Below, piece after piece: positions 29,124 to 38,692 of a stretch of DNA of 64,000 nt. Position 1 is the first letter of the stretch, and every line of letters starts with the position of its first letter. The notes beneath the pieces were generated by a model. The model had not been told where the DNA came from and ran no database searches. It saw nothing but the letters and a program-made list of their open reading frames with translations. Made by a program: the position numbers and the translations under genes. The stretch covers positions 1,426,001 through 1,490,000 of the forward strand of contig NZ_RQJO01000008.1 of NCBI RefSeq assembly GCF_003858635.1, given 5' to 3'. Origin of the DNA: Larkinella rosea. Its GTDB lineage: Bacteria > Bacteroidota > Bacteroidia > Cytophagales > Spirosomataceae.

Positions 29124-30971
29124 TTAATAACCGGGGTTCTGGATCAGCTTCTTGTTCCGGTTAATCTCATCCCGGTTGATCGGCAGGAAGTAGACTTTGT
29201 CGGCCCATTTCCGGTTTTCTTTACCCGTTCCCAGATCCTGCACACTGTACGTATAATTGTAGTTGTCTTTGCTATACTTATACGTCGTGACGGTTTTACC
29301 CGGTTTCAGTTTCCCCGAAACGATCATAATCTGGGCTTGTTTGCCAAACTCGGCCGGAGCGATCATCCAGCGACGGACATCGTAAAAACGTTGCTCTTCG
29401 AACAGCATTTCGATATTCCGCTCATTCTGATAACGGGCCACCAGGGCAGCACCGGTTTCGGTGATGGCGGGCATACCGACGCGGTAGCGGATTTTATTCA
29501 GCCAGGTTTTGGCTTCAGCATCCTGCCCCAGGGCCATCAGCGCTTCAGCGTAGTTGAACACAACTTCCGTAAAGCGGATCTGGATCGATGGAACTTCCTG
29601 ACGGATACTCATATCGAGCAGGGTCGGATCGGGGTCCATGAATTTCCGGATTCCGTAACCGGTCCAGGTTCCGTTCCAGTTTTCGATCGAACTGTTCCGG
29701 GTATCCAAACCAGAATATTTGGTGGGAGCGGATGAGCTCCCTACTTCGTATTCCCCCATTTGAATCTGACCGGCCGGGTCGATACCGGCTCCGTCCGGAG
29801 TCCGGGGTTTCCACTGGGCACCGTCGTAGAGAACCGAAGCATAGAAGCGCGGATCACGGTTTTCGTAGGGAGCAGCCGCGTGAGCAGGGTTTTTCCAGTC
29901 GAATTTGGTTCCGTCCATCATTTCGTAACTATCCACCAATTTCTGGGTAGGCTCGCTCGAGGTCCAGCCGTGGTAGCCATTCGGCATGTTGTTACGCGGG
30001 AACCAGGAACCGGCATCATCGAAGGACGCACGGATGTAATACTTCAGGAAAATACCATCAGCTTCACCACCGTTGCGCGACAGATACATGTTGATGTAGT
30101 TCTGCTGACCTTCTGCCAATGGAACGGGAGCCGTCAGGTTCAGTTTATACCCGTAGAGGTTCAGATCAATGACGGCCTTGGCGGCATCTCTCGCTTTCGT
30201 CCAGCGGGCAACCCGGTCGCCACTAACATAACCCAGTAACTCAGGATTGGTAGCAGCAGCAATAACCGTCGACTTGGCTTTCGCCGTTGGGATGTCGTGC
30301 AGATCACTGGCCGCATACAGCAACACACGGGATTTCAGGGCTAAAGCAGCACCCTGCGTGGCACGCCCGCTGGCGAGCGTTTTACCTTTCAGCAGAATGG
30401 AGGCTGAGTCCAGATCACTTACTATCGCATTCACGCACTCTTCGTAGGTATTGCGGGCAATGGTAAAATCCGGGTTGTCCAGTGTATACGGTGATTTAAT
30501 AATCGGTATACCGCCGTAGTAACGCAGCAATTGATTGTAAAAATACGCCCGCATGAAGTACATTTCACCCTTCAGACGATCCGCAATCGTGGCATTATCG
30601 AATTTAGGCTTCGCCAAATTGGCAATCGCGATGTTAGCCGCCCGGATCCGGGAATACATCGCTCCCCACTCCGTCATTGGCGGAACCGTTCCGATGTTCG
30701 ACGGGCTCACGTTGGCTTCGTTCACGTCCTGTTTCCCGAAGCTGTAGAGCGCGTTGTCGGTCTGGCAGTCGAAATTCATCTGGGCCAGAATACCGTCGCG
30801 GAGGCCATTGTAGACGTCAGTTACGAAAGCCTCCGCCAGGTTCTGATCCGCCCAGACCGCTTCGCCCGACACCTTGTCGAGCGGTTTTGTGTCCAGAAAG
30901 TCGCTATTACAAGCTACCAGCGTCGCTCCCAATAGCAGGGTAGACGACAGGCATTTTACTATATATTTCAT
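29124..30971 (-). CDS. SusD/RagB-family nutrient-binding lipoprotein (pair 1)
   Basis: A 615-residue lipoprotein: lipobox LLGATLVACNSDFLD (Cys at 21), the usual SusD start FLDTKPLDKVSGEAVWAD, a helical TPR-like scaffold (GEMYFMRAYFYNQLLRYYGG, QGAALALKSRVLLYAAS), and the C-terminal RNIEMLFEEQRFYDVRRWM and YFLPINRDEINRN blocks. SusD caps the SusC barrel and binds the ligand on the cell surface. The gene follows susC by 21 bases and ends in a terminator. The ligand is unknown; there is no glycosidase beside this pair. Confidence 0.95.
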   Translation of the reverse strand: MKYIVKCLSSTLLLGATLVACNSDFLDTKPLDKVSGEAVWADQNLAEAFVTDVYNGLRDGILAQMNFDCQTDNALYSFGKQDVNEANVSPSNIGTVPPMTEWGAMYSRIRAANIAIANLAKPKFDNATIADRLKGEMYFMRAYFYNQLLRYYGGIPIIKSPYTLDNPDFTIARNTYEECVNAIVSDLDSASILLKGKTLASGRATQGAALALKSRVLLYAASDLHDIPTAKAKSTVIAAATNPELLGYVSGDRVARWTKARDAAKAVIDLNLYGYKLNLTAPVPLAEGQQNYINMYLSRNGGEADGIFLKYYIRASFDDAGSWFPRNNMPNGYHGWTSSEPTQKLVDSYEMMDGTKFDWKNPAHAAAPYENRDPRFYASVLYDGAQWKPRTPDGAGIDPAGQIQMGEYEVGSSSAPTKYSGLDTRNSSIENWNGTWTGYGIRKFMDPDPTLLDMSIRQEVPSIQIRFTEVVFNYAEALMALGQDAEAKTWLNKIRYRVGMPAITETGAALVARYQNERNIEMLFEEQRFYDVRRWMIAPAEFGKQAQIMIVSGKLKPGKTVTTYKYSKDNYNYTYSVQDLGTGKENRKWADKVYFLPINRDEINRNKKLIQNPGY

Positions 30972-30992
30972 AATGTGAAGTACGCTTTAAAA

Positions 30993-33900
30993 TTAGAAAC
31001 TAACTGATAGACCTGCGTTCATAACCCGTGCCTGTGGGTAGTACTGCGCGCTACTGCTGGTCGATTCCGGATCAAACAGACCTTTCATCGCCGGGGCGTA
31101 AGTGGCCAGGTTGAGGCCGTTTACATACACCCGCAGGTTGTTCAGACCAATTTTGCTCGACAGCAAGCTCGGCAGCGTATAGCCAATTTCAACGTTTTTC
31201 AGACGGATGTAATCCGTTTTCTTCAGCCAGTAGCTCGTACCGTTTGAGAAATACTGGTTACTGCGGTCGACGATCCGTGGGTCAACAGAACTTGGGTTAT
31301 CAACCGTCCAGCGGTGATCGTAGCTCCATTTCAGGAAGTTACCGATGGTTCCCGACTCCGTTTGCAGGAAGATCTGACCACCCGTCGATGCTTGAATCAG
31401 GATGCTGAAGTCGAAGCCTTTGTACGACAGCGTACCGTTGATACCACCCTGGAACCGGGGCTGGTTGTTGCGGTCGGCCCGAACGCGGTCATCACCGTTG
31501 ATTTTACCATCACCGTTGATGTCTTTCAACTTCATGTCGCCAGGGCGCAGCAAGCTCGCACCAACACCACTGTAATCCAGCGTGTTTTTGTCGATATCGG
31601 CCTGCGACGTGAAAATACCGTCATACTGGTACAGCAGGGTACCGTTCTGCTGGTTCGGATCGTTGACGTTGCTCGGAATGGGTTTGCCGGTTGAGCGCTG
31701 CCACTCGGGTGCGCCCGGAGTTTCGTCCCAGAACGTGATTTGGTTCTTGGCATATCCTCCGTTTACACTCACGCTGTATTTCACCTGACCCGCCTGCCCG
31801 TTGTAACCCACGCGGAATTCGTACCCTTTGTTGCTCACTTTACCAATGTTGGTAGCGGGCAGGGTCATACCGGTAGTTTGCGGGATGGAAGCACTTTTGC
31901 GCCACAGGATGTTCGACCGATTGTTTTTGAATACGTCGAATTCGAAGAAAATCTTTCCGTTCAGGGCCGATCCTTCCAGACCGATGTCGGCGTTTTTAGC
32001 AACCTCCCAGGTCAGCGTCGTGTTCGGTACACCGTTTTCATACAGCGTCTGCGAGACCTGTCCGCCCGTTACATAACCCCAGTTGGCATTGACTACGTCA
32101 CCGTAGGCATACGTTGGCAGGTAATCGTATTCGCGCAGCACATCGTTGAAATAAACCTGGTCGTTACCCAATTGACCGTAAGAGGCCCGCAGTTTAAGTG
32201 AGTTGATGACCGGAACGGCATTTTTGAAGAAGTTTTCTTCCGAAATACGCCAGCCCGCTGATACGCCGGGGAAGAAACCCCACCGGCTTGCTTTCGGGAA
32301 CATGTACGAACCATCGTACCGCCACAGGAATTCTGCCAGGTATTTTTCTTTGAAGTTGTAGGCGGCCCGACCGAAGTAGCTCATCCGGGCCCGTTGCCAG
32401 GCGGCTGTCGTGTTACTGTTCTTCTCCGCACTACCACCGGCGAATAACTGGTCGATGGCCGTTGAGGCAAAGTACTTCCGATAACCGGAGAAACCGTTCG
32501 AGTTCGAGGCTTCTTTGGTGATACCCGCCAGCAAAGTAATGCCGTGGTTGCCTGCGAACATGTGATCGTAGGTCAGGATACCCGACAGCAGGGAGTTGAA
32601 CTGGTCGTTCGTATACTGGTTGAGGGTTGCCTGAGCCGGACCTTTCGCAACCCGCGTCAGGATGGGTTGTTTGTTGGCATCGTACGACGTGTAATCCCAG
32701 CTATAGACATACCAGGGCGTTTGCCAGGTTTTGCCTTGCTGAATGTACTTATCCAGAGCCACACTACCGCTGAACTTCAAGCCTGGAACCCAGGGATTGG
32801 TCACATTAACGGTGGCATTGCTTTGCACGTAGTAGCGTGTATCGCGGTCATAACCGGTCGCATTGGTCGTCACCAGAACCGGTTGCTGACCGTTTTCGAT
32901 ATCCGGTGCGGGCTGTCCATTGGGCCAGAAAGCCGGTTTGTTGGGATAACCGCGCATCAACATCCGGAAAATCGCACCGGCACCAACCGTTGGGAAGAAC
33001 CGGTTTTCCTGACGGCCAACAACACCGACAACCGTGTTGATGTACTTGTTGACTTTCGCGTCCAGATTCAGGCGGAAGTCATACTGCTTATAACCGGTCG
33101 CTGAGTTTTTGTAGTACCCATCCTGATTCTGGTAGTTGGCCGAAACCAGGTATTTAATGCTCTCGTTACCGCCCATCAATTGCAGGGTATGTTTCACCTG
33201 CGGTGACCATTGTTTCAGCGCAGCGCCAAACCAGTCAGTGTTCGGGTGTCCCCAGGGATCAGAACCGTCGTTGAACTTCTTGATGTCGTCGGGTGTAAAA
33301 GCGGCTTTGGCAATGGCGCCGTTGTCCGGGCGGGTAAAGGTACCCGTGGTTTTGAAGGCGTCCGACGCACCTTTCCAGTACTGTGCCGGTAGGTTATACA
33401 CGTTAATCTCATTGTTCAGCTGGGCGTATTCGGCGGCCGTTGCCATTTTAGGAATGACAGTAGGCTGTGAAAAACCCTGGTTGAAGCTGTATGACAATTC
33501 CGGTTTACCGGTTTTTCCGCGCTTGGTTGTTACCAGAATAACGCCGTTGGCGGCCCGTGAACCATAAATTGCCGCTGCCGCATCTTTCAAAACGGAGATA
33601 CTTTCAATATCTGCCGGGTTGATCCGGTCAAACCCGCCGGCCCGGGCCGGAACTCCGTCAACAACGATCAGCGCGTCGGTGTTTCCCAGCGTGTTGGAAC
33701 CCCGAATCCGAATTTTGGAACCATCATACCCCGGCTCACCACTGGAGTTGGTGGCGATGACACCCGGCATCCGGCCCGCAATCGAGTTACTCATGTTCAT
33801 GGCCGGTGATTTCACCAGATCCGTCCCTTTGACGGTGGCGACCGAACCGGTAATGGTTTCTTTCTTCTGCTCACCGTAGCCCACAACAACGACTTCGTTC

Positions 33901-34229
33901 AGCGTACTGATGTCGTCGGCTAATTTGACATCGATCACCGAACGGCCCGCAATGGCTACCTCCTGGCTTACGTAACCAATAAACGAGAATACCAGTGTGG
34001 CGTTTTTATTCGATACGTTGAGGGAGTAAGTACCATCCGCAGCAGTCGTTGTTCCCTGTGTCGTACCTTTCACCAAGATACTCACACCGGGCAATGCATC
34101 TGCCTGTCCCCCGGTCACCTTCCCCTTGATGGTGTTCTGAGCAAATGCTCCGGTGACAGCCACAATCATTAGATAAAGTACCAATAGGTACCTATTTTTC
34201 GGAGGTACCAGATAAGTAGCCTTTTTCAT
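30993..34229 (-). CDS. SusC/RagA-family TonB-dependent outer-membrane transporter (pair 1)
   Basis: A 1078-residue protein: signal peptide to about residue 30 (VAVTGAFAQ), a carboxypeptidase-regulatory-like domain (IKGKVTGGQADALPGVSILV), then the TonB plug with LNEVVVVGYGEQKKETITGS and the SusC plug signature SNTLGNTDALIVVDGVP, and a large barrel ending in the aromatic AGLSVSF. It imports oligomers with energy from TonB. It lacks the N-terminal STN domain, so unlike the SusC at 57010 it should not signal to a FecR/sigma pair. A long untranslated leader lies upstream (34230-34483). Confidence 0.96.
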   Translation of the reverse strand: MKKATYLVPPKNRYLLVLYLMIVAVTGAFAQNTIKGKVTGGQADALPGVSILVKGTTQGTTTAADGTYSLNVSNKNATLVFSFIGYVSQEVAIAGRSVIDVKLADDISTLNEVVVVGYGEQKKETITGSVATVKGTDLVKSPAMNMSNSIAGRMPGVIATNSSGEPGYDGSKIRIRGSNTLGNTDALIVVDGVPARAGGFDRINPADIESISVLKDAAAAIYGSRAANGVILVTTKRGKTGKPELSYSFNQGFSQPTVIPKMATAAEYAQLNNEINVYNLPAQYWKGASDAFKTTGTFTRPDNGAIAKAAFTPDDIKKFNDGSDPWGHPNTDWFGAALKQWSPQVKHTLQLMGGNESIKYLVSANYQNQDGYYKNSATGYKQYDFRLNLDAKVNKYINTVVGVVGRQENRFFPTVGAGAIFRMLMRGYPNKPAFWPNGQPAPDIENGQQPVLVTTNATGYDRDTRYYVQSNATVNVTNPWVPGLKFSGSVALDKYIQQGKTWQTPWYVYSWDYTSYDANKQPILTRVAKGPAQATLNQYTNDQFNSLLSGILTYDHMFAGNHGITLLAGITKEASNSNGFSGYRKYFASTAIDQLFAGGSAEKNSNTTAAWQRARMSYFGRAAYNFKEKYLAEFLWRYDGSYMFPKASRWGFFPGVSAGWRISEENFFKNAVPVINSLKLRASYGQLGNDQVYFNDVLREYDYLPTYAYGDVVNANWGYVTGGQVSQTLYENGVPNTTLTWEVAKNADIGLEGSALNGKIFFEFDVFKNNRSNILWRKSASIPQTTGMTLPATNIGKVSNKGYEFRVGYNGQAGQVKYSVSVNGGYAKNQITFWDETPGAPEWQRSTGKPIPSNVNDPNQQNGTLLYQYDGIFTSQADIDKNTLDYSGVGASLLRPGDMKLKDINGDGKINGDDRVRADRNNQPRFQGGINGTLSYKGFDFSILIQASTGGQIFLQTESGTIGNFLKWSYDHRWTVDNPSSVDPRIVDRSNQYFSNGTSYWLKKTDYIRLKNVEIGYTLPSLLSSKIGLNNLRVYVNGLNLATYAPAMKGLFDPESTSSSAQYYPQARVMNAGLSVSF

Positions 34230-34905
34230 ACATACTAGATGGTTTAAAGATTAGTTTGGTAATAATTGGTTTTACTGTTTTAATTGGCAGGTACACATTT
34301 ATGAGATTGGCGTGGACGGCAAGCACAAGCAATGACACTATTGTCAATAAGACTCCGGCATAAAATGCCGGATCGCGCGTTCAACAAATACGTAGGACTA
34401 ATTACTCGAGGGGGGAATTCGAAAGAAAGTGTAGTTGTATGTCATAATTAATAGAGATGGTTTTTGGACTGAATTGAACAATGCAAAGGTAAAATAGTTG
34501 TTAACGTATTCGCTGCGCATTAACCAAATTTTAACGTGATTTTGCCAAAATTGGGTTAATTATAATGCCTTCAATAGACAGACCGGAATAGTTCAACAAA
34601 TCATTTGTATCTAAATAGTAGCGTTAAGGTACTAATAGAATATTAATTATAAAATATTGAACCAATAAAAGTTAAAAGTGAGTCAAAACCGGTTAAAAAT
34701 TAGTCACCGAACTCCTCATTTTGCACTCATTGCTTATGCAGCCGCTATGGCGGATCAGGTGTTGAAGAGAAAACCGATGGAGGGTTCGGCACTCAACAAA
34801 GAAGATGTTTTCCCATACATTGCTACCCAGCGGTTTTCTCCGCAACCAATCCGGGCGTAAGGTTAGTTTTATTCCTACCTTTTTGTATGATTTGGCGAAT
34901 TTACT
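34230..34905. other. Long gene-free region and leader upstream of susC pair 1
   Basis: 676 bases between susC (minus) and the amino-acid permease end. A full -7 element for susC lies at 34484-34491, which would give an untranslated leader of about 250 bases. The leader holds a short hairpin, TCCGGCAT-aaa-ATGCCGGA (34354-34372). The stretch 34500-34680 is very A/T-rich. No gene was accepted; a 60-codon GTG frame at 34678 looks spurious. Confidence 0.5.
34484..34491 (-). promoter_or_regulatory. -7 promoter element for susC pair 1
   Basis: Read on the minus strand the sequence is TACCTTTG, an exact TAnnTTTG match, within an A/T-rich stretch. No TTTG is found at the usual 19-21 base distance upstream, so an activator or alternative sigma may be involved. 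Confidence 0.45.
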
Positions 34906-36273
34906 CTAATGAGCCTCTGGTCTTTGCCGGTACCAGAACCAGTAAAACGGAATTCCCGTGGCAATGAGTCCCAATCCCATCAGGGCTTCGCGGGGTTGTT
35001 CGAGGAGCGTAATGACAACCAGCGTCAGGCAGAACAGGCAGAAAACGATGGGCAAAACCGGGTAGCCAATGACGCGGTAGGGCCGGGGCAAATCCGGGTG
35101 CGACCGCCGGTAGAGCATGACACCCAGAGCCGTTGCGCCGTAAAAAATAAACGAAGCAAACACCAGCATGTCCGTCAACTGATCGAACGTGCCCGACCAG
35201 ACCAGAGCGACCGACAAAACCGCCTGCCAGACAATCGATACTGAGGGCGACTGAAACCGGGGGTGAATCCGGGCCACCGGGCGGAAAAATAAACCGTCGC
35301 GGGCCATTGCGTAATAAATCCGGGCCGACGTCAGAATCGAACTGTTCGTCGCGTTGAAGGTCGTACACAAAATGAGCACCGAGACGAGCGTGGCTCCGGT
35401 GGTGCCACTGACGTGCCGGATGACCTCAACGGCGGCAATCCGGCCGGGCGTTTTGCTCAGCGCCATCAGATCCTCTATGGGCAGCACATAAACATACATA
35501 ACGTTCAGCAGCAGGTATAACCCCATGACAATCAGGGTGCCAAGGCCCAGCGCCAGGGGTAGATTCCGTTGCGGATTCCGGATTTCCTCGCCCACGAACG
35601 CAATGTTATTCCAGCCATCGTACCCCCAGAAAGCACCCAGCGAAGCGATGAACATGGCTTTGACCAACACCATTCCTTCGATGGCTCCGGTGTCGAAGGC
35701 CGGGCTATTGTGGCTCAGGTTGGCAAAACTGCCCAGCGGAGAACGAAAACCGGCAATGGATAAGCCCAAGATAGTCACCAAAATCACGCACGATAGCACC
35801 CAACTGATGCCGCCCGCAAACCGGATGCCGCAGTAATTGGCCAGACTCAGCAGGACGATCAGCAACGAAGCGATTCCGTTGGCCCAGAAACCGGCTTCGT
35901 CGTCCAGCGCCAGCAAACCGATCAGCGATTGGGCAAAAATGTGCGCCAGCGCCGAAATGGCTGCCGTTTTTACGACCGTGAAATTGCTCCAGCCGTAGAT
36001 GAACGCAAAAAACCGGTTGTATACTTTCTGGTAATACACATACTCACCGCCCGAATTTGGAAACATACCGGCCATTTCAGCGTTGGTCAACGCACCGGAC
36101 AGGCTGACCAGACCGGCCAGCAGCCAGCAAAGCAAAATCAGGACCGGCGACTGCAGGGCGTCGGCCATCGGCGCCACTTTTTTGAATACGCCCGATCCCA
36201 CCATCACGCTGCCCACCAGCACAATAGCCGAAGACAGACTCAGAACGCGGGCGAGTTTAGGAGCTGGTTTCAT
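34906..36273 (-). CDS. APC-superfamily amino-acid permease
   Basis: A 455-residue membrane protein with twelve predicted helices. The APC/LAT signature is present at the start (AIVLVGSVMVGSGVFKKVAP, with the substrate-binding GSG) and the later FPNSGGEYVYYQKVYNRFFA. It follows the dipeptide-epimerase-like gene by 3 bases, and that one overlaps a DUF1611 gene, so it is the last gene of a tight three-gene operon. By context it should import the amino acid or dipeptide those two enzymes process, perhaps D-glutamate or a Glu-containing dipeptide. The specificity is inferred only. Confidence 0.9.
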   Translation of the reverse strand: MKPAPKLARVLSLSSAIVLVGSVMVGSGVFKKVAPMADALQSPVLILLCWLLAGLVSLSGALTNAEMAGMFPNSGGEYVYYQKVYNRFFAFIYGWSNFTVVKTAAISALAHIFAQSLIGLLALDDEAGFWANGIASLLIVLLSLANYCGIRFAGGISWVLSCVILVTILGLSIAGFRSPLGSFANLSHNSPAFDTGAIEGMVLVKAMFIASLGAFWGYDGWNNIAFVGEEIRNPQRNLPLALGLGTLIVMGLYLLLNVMYVYVLPIEDLMALSKTPGRIAAVEVIRHVSGTTGATLVSVLILCTTFNATNSSILTSARIYYAMARDGLFFRPVARIHPRFQSPSVSIVWQAVLSVALVWSGTFDQLTDMLVFASFIFYGATALGVMLYRRSHPDLPRPYRVIGYPVLPIVFCLFCLTLVVITLLEQPREALMGLGLIATGIPFYWFWYRQRPEAH

Positions 36274-36276
36274 GGG

Positions 36277-37350
36277 CTACAGCGCTACATCCGTTAAGCC
36301 CAAACCCGGAAAACCGGTGGGACGCATCAATCCGCCTTCGACAATAAAACCGCCTTTTACCACATCTTCGGCGAGATCGAAGCTGCCGTCCAGATCGATG
36401 TAGCGCGTGTTCGGGCAGGCAAAAGCTGCGTGCAGAGCCGCCGAAATGCTGACGATGCTCTCGTCGTTGCAGCCCCAGAACAGCTCAATCCCGCTCAACC
36501 GGGCCACCGTTGCAATGTCGAACGCACCCCGGATGCCGCCACATTTCATGAGTTTGATGTTGAAAATCCCGAATGGTTTTGGCTCCTGCGCCAGTTGCAG
36601 AGCCGCTTCGCCGTTTTTTAACGATTCATCGGCCGCCAGCGTCTGGCGAATGCGCAGCGGCAAGATGCGAAGTTCGTCTTCCGTACCCACGGGCAGCGGT
36701 TGTTCAATCAATTCCACCCGAGCGTCCTCGGTCTGGCCGATGAACCGGATCAACTGATCGGCATTGTAGCCCTGATTGGCATCGACACGCAGCATCAGGT
36801 CAGGACCAAATTGTTCACGGAGTTTGCGGATGCGGCCGATGTCTTCGGTTACATCTAGACCGGTTTTTACTTTCAGTACCCGAAAACCCTGTTGAAGATA
36901 CGCGCGGGCGGCTTCCAGCGTTTCGGCAATGTTCATGATGCCAATTGTCACCGATGTGGGCAAGGCTTTGATCTTCTGGCCGTACAATTCGACCACTGGA
37001 ATCCCGAGAAACTGCCCGAAGGCGTCGTGGAGGGCAATGTCGAAAGCCGCCAGCGTGCCGGGGCTGTCCGGAAAAAGGTGTCGGGCTTCGTCGATCAATT
37101 GAAAGCTATGGCGGATGTCGCGACCGACAAATTGCTGAAAGGCGTCACTTTGCAGGTTGGCGAATGCCTGATCCGGGGATTCGCCGACGACTTCCGGTGA
37201 GGGGTTGGCGGCCCCCAGTCCAATGATGCCGTTTGCCAGTTCAACGACCAGAAAAATATTTTCAACGGCCGAAATGGTCTGGTACGCAATGGTATACGGT
37301 TTGGTCAGGGCCAAATCCCGGCGGAACGTCCGGATGGATTTAATCTGCAT
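36277..37350 (-). CDS. Enolase-superfamily dipeptide epimerase (L-Ala-D/L-Glu epimerase or DgcA-like N-acetyl-D-Glu racemase)
   Basis: A 357-residue enolase-superfamily enzyme. The catalytic KxK is in FRVLKVKTGLDV, metal ligands are in LRVDANQGY, ELIEQPLP and LAADESL, and the second catalytic Lys is in FNIKLMKCGG. The C-terminal IDLDGSFDL has the DxD element that in L-Ala-D/L-Glu epimerases holds the dipeptide amino group. The gene overlaps the DUF1611 gene by 11 bases and is followed by a permease. In some proteobacteria and archaea, as I recall, this same pair are DgcN and DgcA, which convert D-Glu through N-acetyl-D-Glu to the L-form. Which substrate applies here is open. The start at 37350 (MQIKSIRTF) is preferred over a longer frame lying in the upstream gene. 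Confidence 0.87.
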   Translation of the reverse strand: MQIKSIRTFRRDLALTKPYTIAYQTISAVENIFLVVELANGIIGLGAANPSPEVVGESPDQAFANLQSDAFQQFVGRDIRHSFQLIDEARHLFPDSPGTLAAFDIALHDAFGQFLGIPVVELYGQKIKALPTSVTIGIMNIAETLEAARAYLQQGFRVLKVKTGLDVTEDIGRIRKLREQFGPDLMLRVDANQGYNADQLIRFIGQTEDARVELIEQPLPVGTEDELRILPLRIRQTLAADESLKNGEAALQLAQEPKPFGIFNIKLMKCGGIRGAFDIATVARLSGIELFWGCNDESIVSISAALHAAFACPNTRYIDLDGSFDLAEDVVKGGFIVEGGLMRPTGFPGLGLTDVAL

Positions 37351-38410
37351 AACGGACGGTTTTCTCGATGACCTGACGAATGACTGGCACCACCGGTTCG
37401 ACGCCTTCTTCCAGTGGTAACAAAACCGGAATGCCCAGCCGGTCGGCGTATTCCTGCTGGAATTGCCGGGCTTCTTCGGGCGTGCAATCTTCGGTATTAA
37501 GCGCCAGCGCAATCACTTCCGCACCGAATTTCTGAATGATTTCAATTTCCGATTCGACCGGCGGAATTTCGCCCCAGTGCGGTTCGTAATCAAAAAACCG
37601 GCGTTTGGGCGCGTGCATCAACACGACGTGTCTGGCATTTCCCGAAACGATAAACTCCAGTCCGCACGGTCCGCTGGGATTCCGAAGTGCCGACTGGCCT
37701 TCGATCAGCAACACCTCGGCAGCGGTTTCCTGCCAGCACGTCACCAGCGCGTGTTCGATCTCACCGGAAATAAAATCGTTCAGCGTCGAGTCGAAAATAA
37801 ACCCGTATTGGCCGCCCTGCAACCAGCCGGTTTGGCCGGTATAAATCATCTGGGCGTTCAGTCCGGCGGTCTGGCAAGCCTGGGTCAAAAGCCGGGTCGT
37901 TGTCCGTTTGCCCATCGCACAGTCCATGCCGAGGACGGCGAGAATGGGCGCTTTTATCTTAAAAACCTCCCCCGACCAGAAATGGAGTTCGGCGCGGGGT
38001 TTGGGTTTCCGGATATCGATCAGTTGGGTGTTGTTCTCGGCGGCCAGTTGCACGAGCGTCGGCCGGTCGTTCAGCAGATCGTGCAGGCCGTTAACAACTG
38101 ACAGGCCGTTTTGCAGACAGGTTTCGATCAGAAACAACACTTCCAGCGGCAGGATCCCGCCGGTTGTCGCCACACCCACAATGCCAACCTGCACCGGCCC
38201 GACCTGTGCCAAAGCCTCTTCCAGCGAAGCAAAGACCGGGATCTGACGGTTTTTACCGTCGAGCACTTCACCCGCATCGCGCCCGGCCGTGGGCGGGTCA
38301 ATCACACCGGCAATGGTGTAGCGTTCGCTGTCGCGGATGAGTCCATGCGCGGTTTTCGCATTCGGCGTTGCCAGCAAGCCGTTGGTTAATAAAAGAGCCC
38401 GTTCTGCCAT
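37340..38410 (-). CDS. DUF1611-family protein (DgcN-like)
   Basis: A 356-residue cytoplasmic protein. The N-terminal third has a Rossmann-like shape (TIAGVIDPPTAGRDAGEVLD, VQVGIVGVATTGGILP) and the C-terminal part is a P-loop domain with VLGMDCAMGKRTTTRLL as Walker A, and IYTGQTGWLQGGQYG and LLIEGQSALRNPSGP as further DUF1611 marks. A family member, DgcN, has been described as a D-glutamate N-acetyltransferase (from memory). Here it leads an operon with the epimerase (11-base overlap) and an amino-acid permease, matching that pathway. The biochemical assignment in Bacteroidota is inference. Confidence 0.85.
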   Translation of the reverse strand: MAERALLLTNGLLATPNAKTAHGLIRDSERYTIAGVIDPPTAGRDAGEVLDGKNRQIPVFASLEEALAQVGPVQVGIVGVATTGGILPLEVLFLIETCLQNGLSVVNGLHDLLNDRPTLVQLAAENNTQLIDIRKPKPRAELHFWSGEVFKIKAPILAVLGMDCAMGKRTTTRLLTQACQTAGLNAQMIYTGQTGWLQGGQYGFIFDSTLNDFISGEIEHALVTCWQETAAEVLLIEGQSALRNPSGPCGLEFIVSGNARHVVLMHAPKRRFFDYEPHWGEIPPVESEIEIIQKFGAEVIALALNTEDCTPEEARQFQQEYADRLGIPVLLPLEEGVEPVVPVIRQVIEKTVRYAD

Positions 38411-38591: not shown

Positions 38592-38688
38592 GTTTACGGT
38601 ATTCGGTTTTCGGAGTTCCGCCAGGATTCCATAAAGAGTAAGTCGCAAACCGAAAACTGTATACCGTAAACTGAAAACCGTATACCGG
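38592..38688. repeat. Inverted and tandem repeats before the second ABC exporter
   Basis: A 22-base arm at 38592-38613 pairs with 38650-38671 with two mismatches. Overlapping the right arm, two 21-base units stand head to tail at 38647-38667 and 38668-38688 (18 of 21 bases the same; core GAAAAC-nGTATACCG). The second unit ends 5 bases before the exporter ATG at 38693, a position suited to an operator, but it may be a dispersed repeat. Confidence 0.6.
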
Positions 38689-38692
38689 AACT

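Follow-up and report, generated by a model that had tools for sequence, protein, structure and literature searches.

The closest described systems to the locus analysed here are the DgcN-DgcA pathway, in which a D-glutamate N-acetyltransferase with the DUF1611 fold is paired with an N-acetyl-D-glutamate racemase of the enolase superfamily, and the dipeptide epimerases of the same superfamily. The pathway is placed in Shewanella in an extract of one source (PMC10845958), DgcN and DgcA are named in a Rhodobacteraceae in an extract of another (PMC11747546), and the title of a further paper reports the pathway from haloarchaea. The dipeptide epimerases include the L-Ala-D/L-Glu enzymes YcjG (1jpd), YkfB (1jpm) and that of B. 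theta (3iji), and for YcjG and YkfB an extract of PMC5808125 covers both the catalytic lysines and the murein role. The Methylococcus capsulatus enzyme (3rit, 3ro6) was solved with L-Arg-D-Lys. No literature was found on dipeptide epimerases of Bacteroidetes or of Methylococcus capsulatus; papers on racemases and on penicillin routes yielded nothing about basic dipeptides, nor did one on the plant AEE about the residues concerned. We compared these systems with a stretch of 64,000 nucleotides from Larkinella rosea (contig NZ_RQJO01000008.1, positions 1,426,001 to 1,490,000; hereafter the window), in which genes for a DUF1611 protein (PF07755 and PF17396), an enolase-superfamily dipeptide epimerase (MR_MLE_N and MR_MLE_C) and an APC permease (AA_permease_2) share one direction of transcription. 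The original prediction had read them as a single unit, joined by a short overlap and a short gap, and this layout was confirmed, with all three on the minus strand (Table 1). The 8.17 Mb genome carries one copy of the DUF1611 gene.

We tentatively propose that Larkinella carries in this operon its copy of a conserved, mostly Bacteroidota module salvaging a non-acidic, possibly basic, D-amino acid through N-acylation by the DUF1611 protein, inversion by the epimerase and deacylation, a reading that we consider plausible but short of probable. The module would follow DgcN-DgcA logic but, judged by its sequences, is not a DgcN-DgcA member.

Conservation of the module was observed at several distances. 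An orthologue of the epimerase is present in six of eight other genomes of the genus (85-89% identity), and all six loci keep the three-gene order and the divergent upstream ABC transporter gene, while the downstream genes differ among them. When named genomes were scanned with the epimerase alignment, 475 matches were obtained, the best 80 of which were taken as a biased sample of loci; by title, all are Bacteroidota except one Marinicella and one Balneola metagenome-assembled genome. DUF1611 was found in 77 of the 80 loci, in the same directon in 75; of the remaining three, L066 and L094 sit at a contig end that falls directly upstream of the epimerase, and L092 lacks it. The permease is present in 35 loci and belongs to the directon in 33. 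In other genomes, 54 of the 76 measurable DUF1611/epimerase pairs overlap or lie no more than 20 nt apart. The three-gene arrangement is thus not due to chance, given the order kept in all six orthologous loci of the genus and the frequent overlap or short spacing elsewhere. In an even draw of 148 Bacteroidota genomes, 27 carried DUF1611 and 11 carried this type of epimerase (a match at E up to 1e-90), each of the latter together with DUF1611. The two genes were adjacent in six of these genomes, about 0.5 kb apart in one, 2.3-2.5 kb apart in three and on different contigs in one, so that 10 of 11 pairs lie within 3 kb.

The predicted structure of the DUF1611 protein (predicted local distance difference test score, 90) matched three solved DUF1611 proteins in Foldseek (2obn, 2g0t and 7xrj), with template modelling (TM) scores of 0.71/0.75 for 7xrj. 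The latter is titled "N-acetyltransferase DgcN-25328" and is the sole relative with a named activity; the relationship to DgcN that had been suggested for this protein therefore stands at the level of the fold. Residues of the P-loop and of the GLH, TGQT and EGQ motifs are common to the DUF1611 protein, DgcN and the haloarchaeal and Ruegeria proteins, and G161, D163, C164, G167 and K168 are identical in all seven aligned rows (DgcN, two haloarchaeal, one Ruegeria and three of the Larkinella clade). Against the DgcN equivalog model (NCBIfam NF041892, cut-off 480 bits) the window protein reached 130.1 bits, compared with 525 bits for the Pantoea control and 561 bits for that of one Bacteroidota genome (G136); ten further Bacteroidota DUF1611 proteins scored 149-262 bits. 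G136 is the only one to pass among the 12 Bacteroidota DUF1611 proteins scored, out of the 27 genomes of the draw that carry one, and in this genome DgcN adjoins a DgcA of 509 bits, also above its cut-off.

The phylogenies were quick trees with Shimodaira-Hasegawa-like approximate likelihood ratio support only; the groups compared in the approximately unbiased (AU) tests were named after the first trees had been inspected, and before these tests four long rows were dropped from the DUF1611 set and one from the epimerase set. The Larkinella DUF1611 clade joined a flavobacterial clade and the Vibrio/Rhodobacterales proteins at support 99, with DgcN apart. A placement of DgcN closest to the Larkinella clade was rejected (AU p 0.0014), while DgcN as sister of the wider 34-row group holding that clade was not (p 0.37). 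For the epimerase, DgcA/YcjG (1jpd) as nearest kin was rejected (p 0.004; 0.005 with 3rit included), and a grouping of the clade, 3rit, the flavobacterial clade and DgcA/YcjG was not (p 0.064). Because these two wider groupings were not rejected, what the trees exclude is nearest, but not deep, kinship with DgcN and DgcA. The original prediction had named a placement of both proteins on a branch tied to a different pathway as the outcome that would tell against it. As regards close kinship with DgcN and DgcA, both proteins do fall elsewhere, but the pathway of the branch on which they fall is itself uncharacterised.

The window epimerase is a dipeptide epimerase of the enolase superfamily in the broad sense. 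The catalytic lysines and the Asp-Glu-Asp metal site (Lys160, Lys162, Lys266, D190, E216 and D241) and the DxD motif are present in it and in all 80 relatives. Its best solved relative is the Methylococcus capsulatus enzyme (3rit; 49% identity, root-mean-square deviation 1.4), with which its clade was joined at support 100. The two share the LPTSVTIG and DLDGSFD motifs and Asp296, a residue absent from the Ala-Glu, DgcA, haloarchaeal and N-succinyl-Arg/Lys racemase (2p88) rows of the alignment; by tree and by this residue, the window protein sides with the Methylococcus type. It reached 129.7 bits on the DgcA model (NF042940, cut-off 400), and 189.9 and 83.9 bits on the Ala-Glu epimerase models (NF041118, cut-off 500; NF011708, cut-off 343).

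The glutamate side chain is bound by an arginine at position 24 (B. subtilis) or 26 (E. coli, B. theta, DgcA and the haloarchaeal rows). The window epimerase has Gln24 and Ile26; of its 80 relatives, one has Arg24 and none has Arg26. The alignment with DgcA and YcjG/YkfB that had been suggested thus shows common catalytic residues and a common DxD motif, without the glutamate-binding arginines. Together with the scores far under both cut-offs and the two trees, this counts against the D-glutamate or N-acetyl-D-glutamate substrate of the original prediction, and D-glutamate appears an unlikely substrate. A true DgcN-DgcA pathway for D-glutamate would account for the shared fold, the gene order matching dgcN-dgcA and the common P-loop core, and is helped by the wider DUF1611 grouping left standing and by two haloarchaeal proteins that also fall under the DgcN cut-off (192 and 185 bits). 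Set against it are the low scores, the rejection of DgcN and DgcA as nearest kin, the lack of Arg26 in every relative and the high-scoring pair found elsewhere in the phylum, and we regard this pathway as very unlikely here. The transporters also differ, the DgcN-DgcA system of Pantoea having an ABC transporter where the window operon has an APC permease.

The cell-wall dipeptide L-Ala-D-Glu, the other substrate that had been considered, fares no better on the same residues, and YkfB (1jpm) as nearest kin of the clade was rejected (AU p 4e-5). Recycling of this murein dipeptide would fit the DLD motif and the sub-threshold matches to the Ala-Glu models. The window epimerase nevertheless lies on a different branch from YcjG, YkfB and the B. 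theta enzyme. A host paralogue bearing Arg26 has the B. theta L-Ala-D-Glu enzyme 3iji as its neighbour in the tree (support 90, not starred, long branches for both), and because of this grouping a murein-type role may already be filled, although the paralogue likewise passes no model cut-off. L-Ala-D-Glu from murein is therefore probably not the substrate, and recycling of this dipeptide by the operon seems most unlikely.

Of the 44 alignment rows, that of the N-succinyl-Arg/Lys racemase alone lacks the DLD motif. The motif had been held up as an argument against N-acetylglutamate, an argument that proved indecisive. On the alignment, DLD is not diagnostic between dipeptide and N-acetyl substrates because proteins named DgcA by the model keep it. 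Two proteins above the DgcA cut-off do so, yet they exceed the cut-off of the YcjG-type Ala-Glu model as well (372 and 343.7 bits against 343) and, being named by model and DgcN neighbour only, may not be pure DgcA. Given this motif and the L-Arg-D-Lys bound by the nearest solved relative, the epimerase might instead act on existing L-X-D-Y dipeptides whose Y is basic, derived from peptides or the cell wall, and yield L-L dipeptides for peptidases, with DUF1611 serving a later or separate step. The presence of both DLD and Asp296 in all relatives, and of peptidases and D-aminoacylase-like proteins in their clusters, is in keeping with such a role; the importer comes from an amino-acid rather than a peptide transporter family, and the near-constant DUF1611 partner would be left unexplained. 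We consider this explanation rather unlikely.

A further explanation takes the DUF1611 protein to be an ATP-dependent ligase instead of an acetyltransferase. It would join an L-amino acid, as a protecting group, to the incoming (basic) D-amino acid; the epimerase would then invert the L-D dipeptide and a peptidase would release two L-amino acids. Such a scheme accounts at once for the invariant DLD (a free amino group), the intact P-loop and the amino-acid importer. Behind the DUF1611 proteins, the list of structural matches contains ATP enzymes, for example cyclic 2,3-diphosphoglycerate synthetase and ATP citrate lyase. These are mixed with plain Rossmann reductases, all at low TM-scores, and the relative with a named activity is titled an N-acetyltransferase. 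We know of no ligase in the DUF1611 family, and the ligase scheme is judged improbable.

The remaining evidence comes from neighbouring genes. The permease reached 189.4 bits on AA_permease_2 (PF13520, cut-off 27), and its best solved relatives are 6f2g followed by y+LAT1, b(0,+), LAT1 and xCT chains. Members of this family are single-amino-acid transporters, and the dedicated importer of the original prediction is upheld to this extent. Its D-amino-acid theme is likewise borne out by the related loci. A D-aminoacylase-like amidohydrolase was identified in 55 of the 80, and a beta-lactamase-type domain is fused to 33 of the 56 proteins of this kind (Pfam for one fusion; example L052:3323-5794). 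One stand-alone copy matched D-aminoacylase 1m7j at 210 bits and N-acyl-D-glutamate deacylase 3gip at 201 bits, below an unnamed amidohydrolase (9g5m, 239 bits). An M55 D-aminopeptidase lies in the directon of four loci; Lrp/AsnC regulators were found in ten loci and haem-dependent oxidative N-demethylase-like proteins in eight, and two L,D-transpeptidase families occur nearby, outside the directon, in nine and six loci (one member of each of these families was checked with Pfam). The hydrolases in 55 loci, alongside the DUF1611 and permease counts, make a D-amino-acid or D-dipeptide role for the module likely. In the haloarchaeon Natrinema (L129), genes for a D-aminoacylase, a DUF1611 protein and a dipeptide epimerase are consecutive, although this DUF1611 protein and epimerase fall on other branches and the epimerase keeps Arg26. 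In Spirosoma/Fibrella loci (L047, L048, L050, L051, L052, L054, L055 and L056), the N-demethylase-like gene lies between epimerase and permease, which hints at an N-methylated compound.

The surroundings of DUF1611 were inspected in 26 of the 27 Bacteroidota genomes (G128 left out), 20 by regions and 6 by coordinates. An enolase-superfamily epimerase lies near DUF1611 in 18 (seven of the Larkinella type, eight of a flavobacterial sister type, one DgcA, one in a reversed pair and one matching in type the other paralogue of the host), and eight show no epimerase in the stretch inspected. In the eight flavobacterial-type loci, a pyridoxal phosphate (PLP) enzyme stands beside DUF1611; the three checked exceed the "threonine synthase" cut-off. 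A creatininase-type hydrolase, free-standing or joined to a large domain of unknown kind, is also present in four of these loci and was checked in two. The sister form (L147, L148, L149, L151, L152, L154, L158 and L159), with its PLP threonine-synthase-like enzyme, DUF1611 and epimerase, looks biosynthetic rather than catabolic. The label "MurL-like" was tried for a flavobacterial neighbour and dropped (24 and 19 bits, cut-off 700), and a structure search found no solved relative of this protein. In L146, L150 and L155, DUF1611 is near genes that resemble those for aspartokinase, diaminopimelate decarboxylase or aspartate semialdehyde dehydrogenase (named by eye; only the L150 decarboxylase was checked). 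On Vibrio and Rhodobacterales plasmids (L122, L123 and L126), a gene for an Orr-like PLP amino-acid racemase directly follows DUF1611 in place of the epimerase; the two Rhodobacterales racemases scored 252 and 244 bits, under the cut-off of 480, and the Vibrio one was named by eye. The recurring theme, as read from these assignments, is DUF1611 with an enzyme that inverts an amino-acid centre, whether epimerase, DgcA or Orr-like racemase.

We favour acylation followed by inversion because of the DUF1611 linkage in 77 of 80 loci, the D-aminoacylase-like genes, the M55 peptidases, the Natrinema gene row, the amino-acid importer, the inverting partners and the kinship with 3rit together with Asp296. 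The gene unit, its conservation, the protein families, the phylogeny and the active-site residues were observed directly; the substrate, the DUF1611 chemistry and the direction of the pathway are what we infer. The permease would import a D-amino acid, and the DUF1611 protein, to go by its DgcN fold and common P-loop core, would add an acetyl or other acyl group to the amino nitrogen. The epimerase, whose lysines and metal ligands are in place, would invert the alpha carbon by the two-lysine, Mg-assisted mechanism of its family, and a hydrolase encoded elsewhere in the genome would release the L-amino acid.

Several observations weigh against acylation-inversion of a non-acidic D-amino acid. 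A score below the DgcN cut-off does not exclude D-glutamate as substrate, since the haloarchaeal proteins also fall below it though the pathway is reported from haloarchaea. The preference for a basic substrate is a guess from Asp296 and kinship, because the Arg24 and Glu51 of 3rit are not kept in the clade as a rule. Where the Methylococcus enzyme carries its functional Glu51, the clade has Ala, Ser, Asp or Phe; at position 53, 70 of the 80 relatives have Glu or Asp. The constancy of DLD speaks for a substrate with a free amino group, and a simple N-acetyl amino acid has none. The Larkinella cluster has no D-aminoacylase gene; a host homologue (37% identity over the longer aligned part) is found on a different contig, surrounded by genes that look sulfatase-like by eye; 25 of the 80 loci have no D-aminoacylase-like gene and 45 no permease, some being cut by contig ends. 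In one further genome (G163), a DUF1611 protein 51% identical to that of the window adjoins an epimerase of another type.

The coordinates of the operon and its main features are collected in Table 1. Downstream of the operon, a SusC/SusD-like pair was recognised by eye at 29124-34229 (minus strand), with no match in the six Larkinella stretches compared. The gap downstream of the permease holds a short open stretch (34711-34860, plus strand) that ends in a stop and resembles a leftover C-terminal end of a larger protein. An inverted repeat of 22 nt (38592-38671; 91% complementary, 36 nt apart) lies in the leader of the divergent ABC transporter gene, with a third related copy at 38673-38690.

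Table 1. Features of the Larkinella rosea operon, in window coordinates.
Feature	Position	Strand	Remarks
DUF1611 protein (P0001, 356 aa)	37340..38410, stop codon counted	-	Rossmann-like N-domain and P-loop C-domain, DgcN-like fold; Foldseek 2obn, 2g0t, 7xrj DgcN
Dipeptide epimerase, enolase superfamily (P0002, 357 aa)	36277..37350, stop codon counted	-	Nearest solved relative 3rit
APC-family amino acid permease (P0003, 455 aa)	34906..36273, stop codon counted	-	PF13520, 189 bits
Overlap of DUF1611 stop and epimerase start, 11 bases	37340..37350	-	Same 11-nt overlap in 15/76 related loci
Gap between epimerase and permease, 3 bases	36274-36276	-	Gene coordinates
P-loop G161-T170 (GMDCAMGKRT) of DUF1611 protein	37901..37930	-	Alignment residues
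DLD motif (D319-L320-D321) of epimerase	36388..36396	-	Both Asp in 80/80 relatives
Asp296 codon of epimerase	36463..36465	-	Common to the L-Arg-D-Lys-bound Methylococcus enzyme; 80/80 relatives

Dipeptide epimerases of odd specificity are reportedly known in vitro without a biological role (Lukk et al. 2012). With the near-constant DUF1611 partner, the importer and the D-aminoacylase-like hydrolases, one such group now has a pathway that can be tested. Since only one of the twelve scored Bacteroidota DUF1611 proteins passes the DgcN cut-off, caution is warranted in naming these loci: DUF1611 next to a DLD-bearing epimerase does not always mean D-glutamate catabolism. If the DUF1611 protein should turn out to be a ligase, the module would represent a new route for using D-amino acids.

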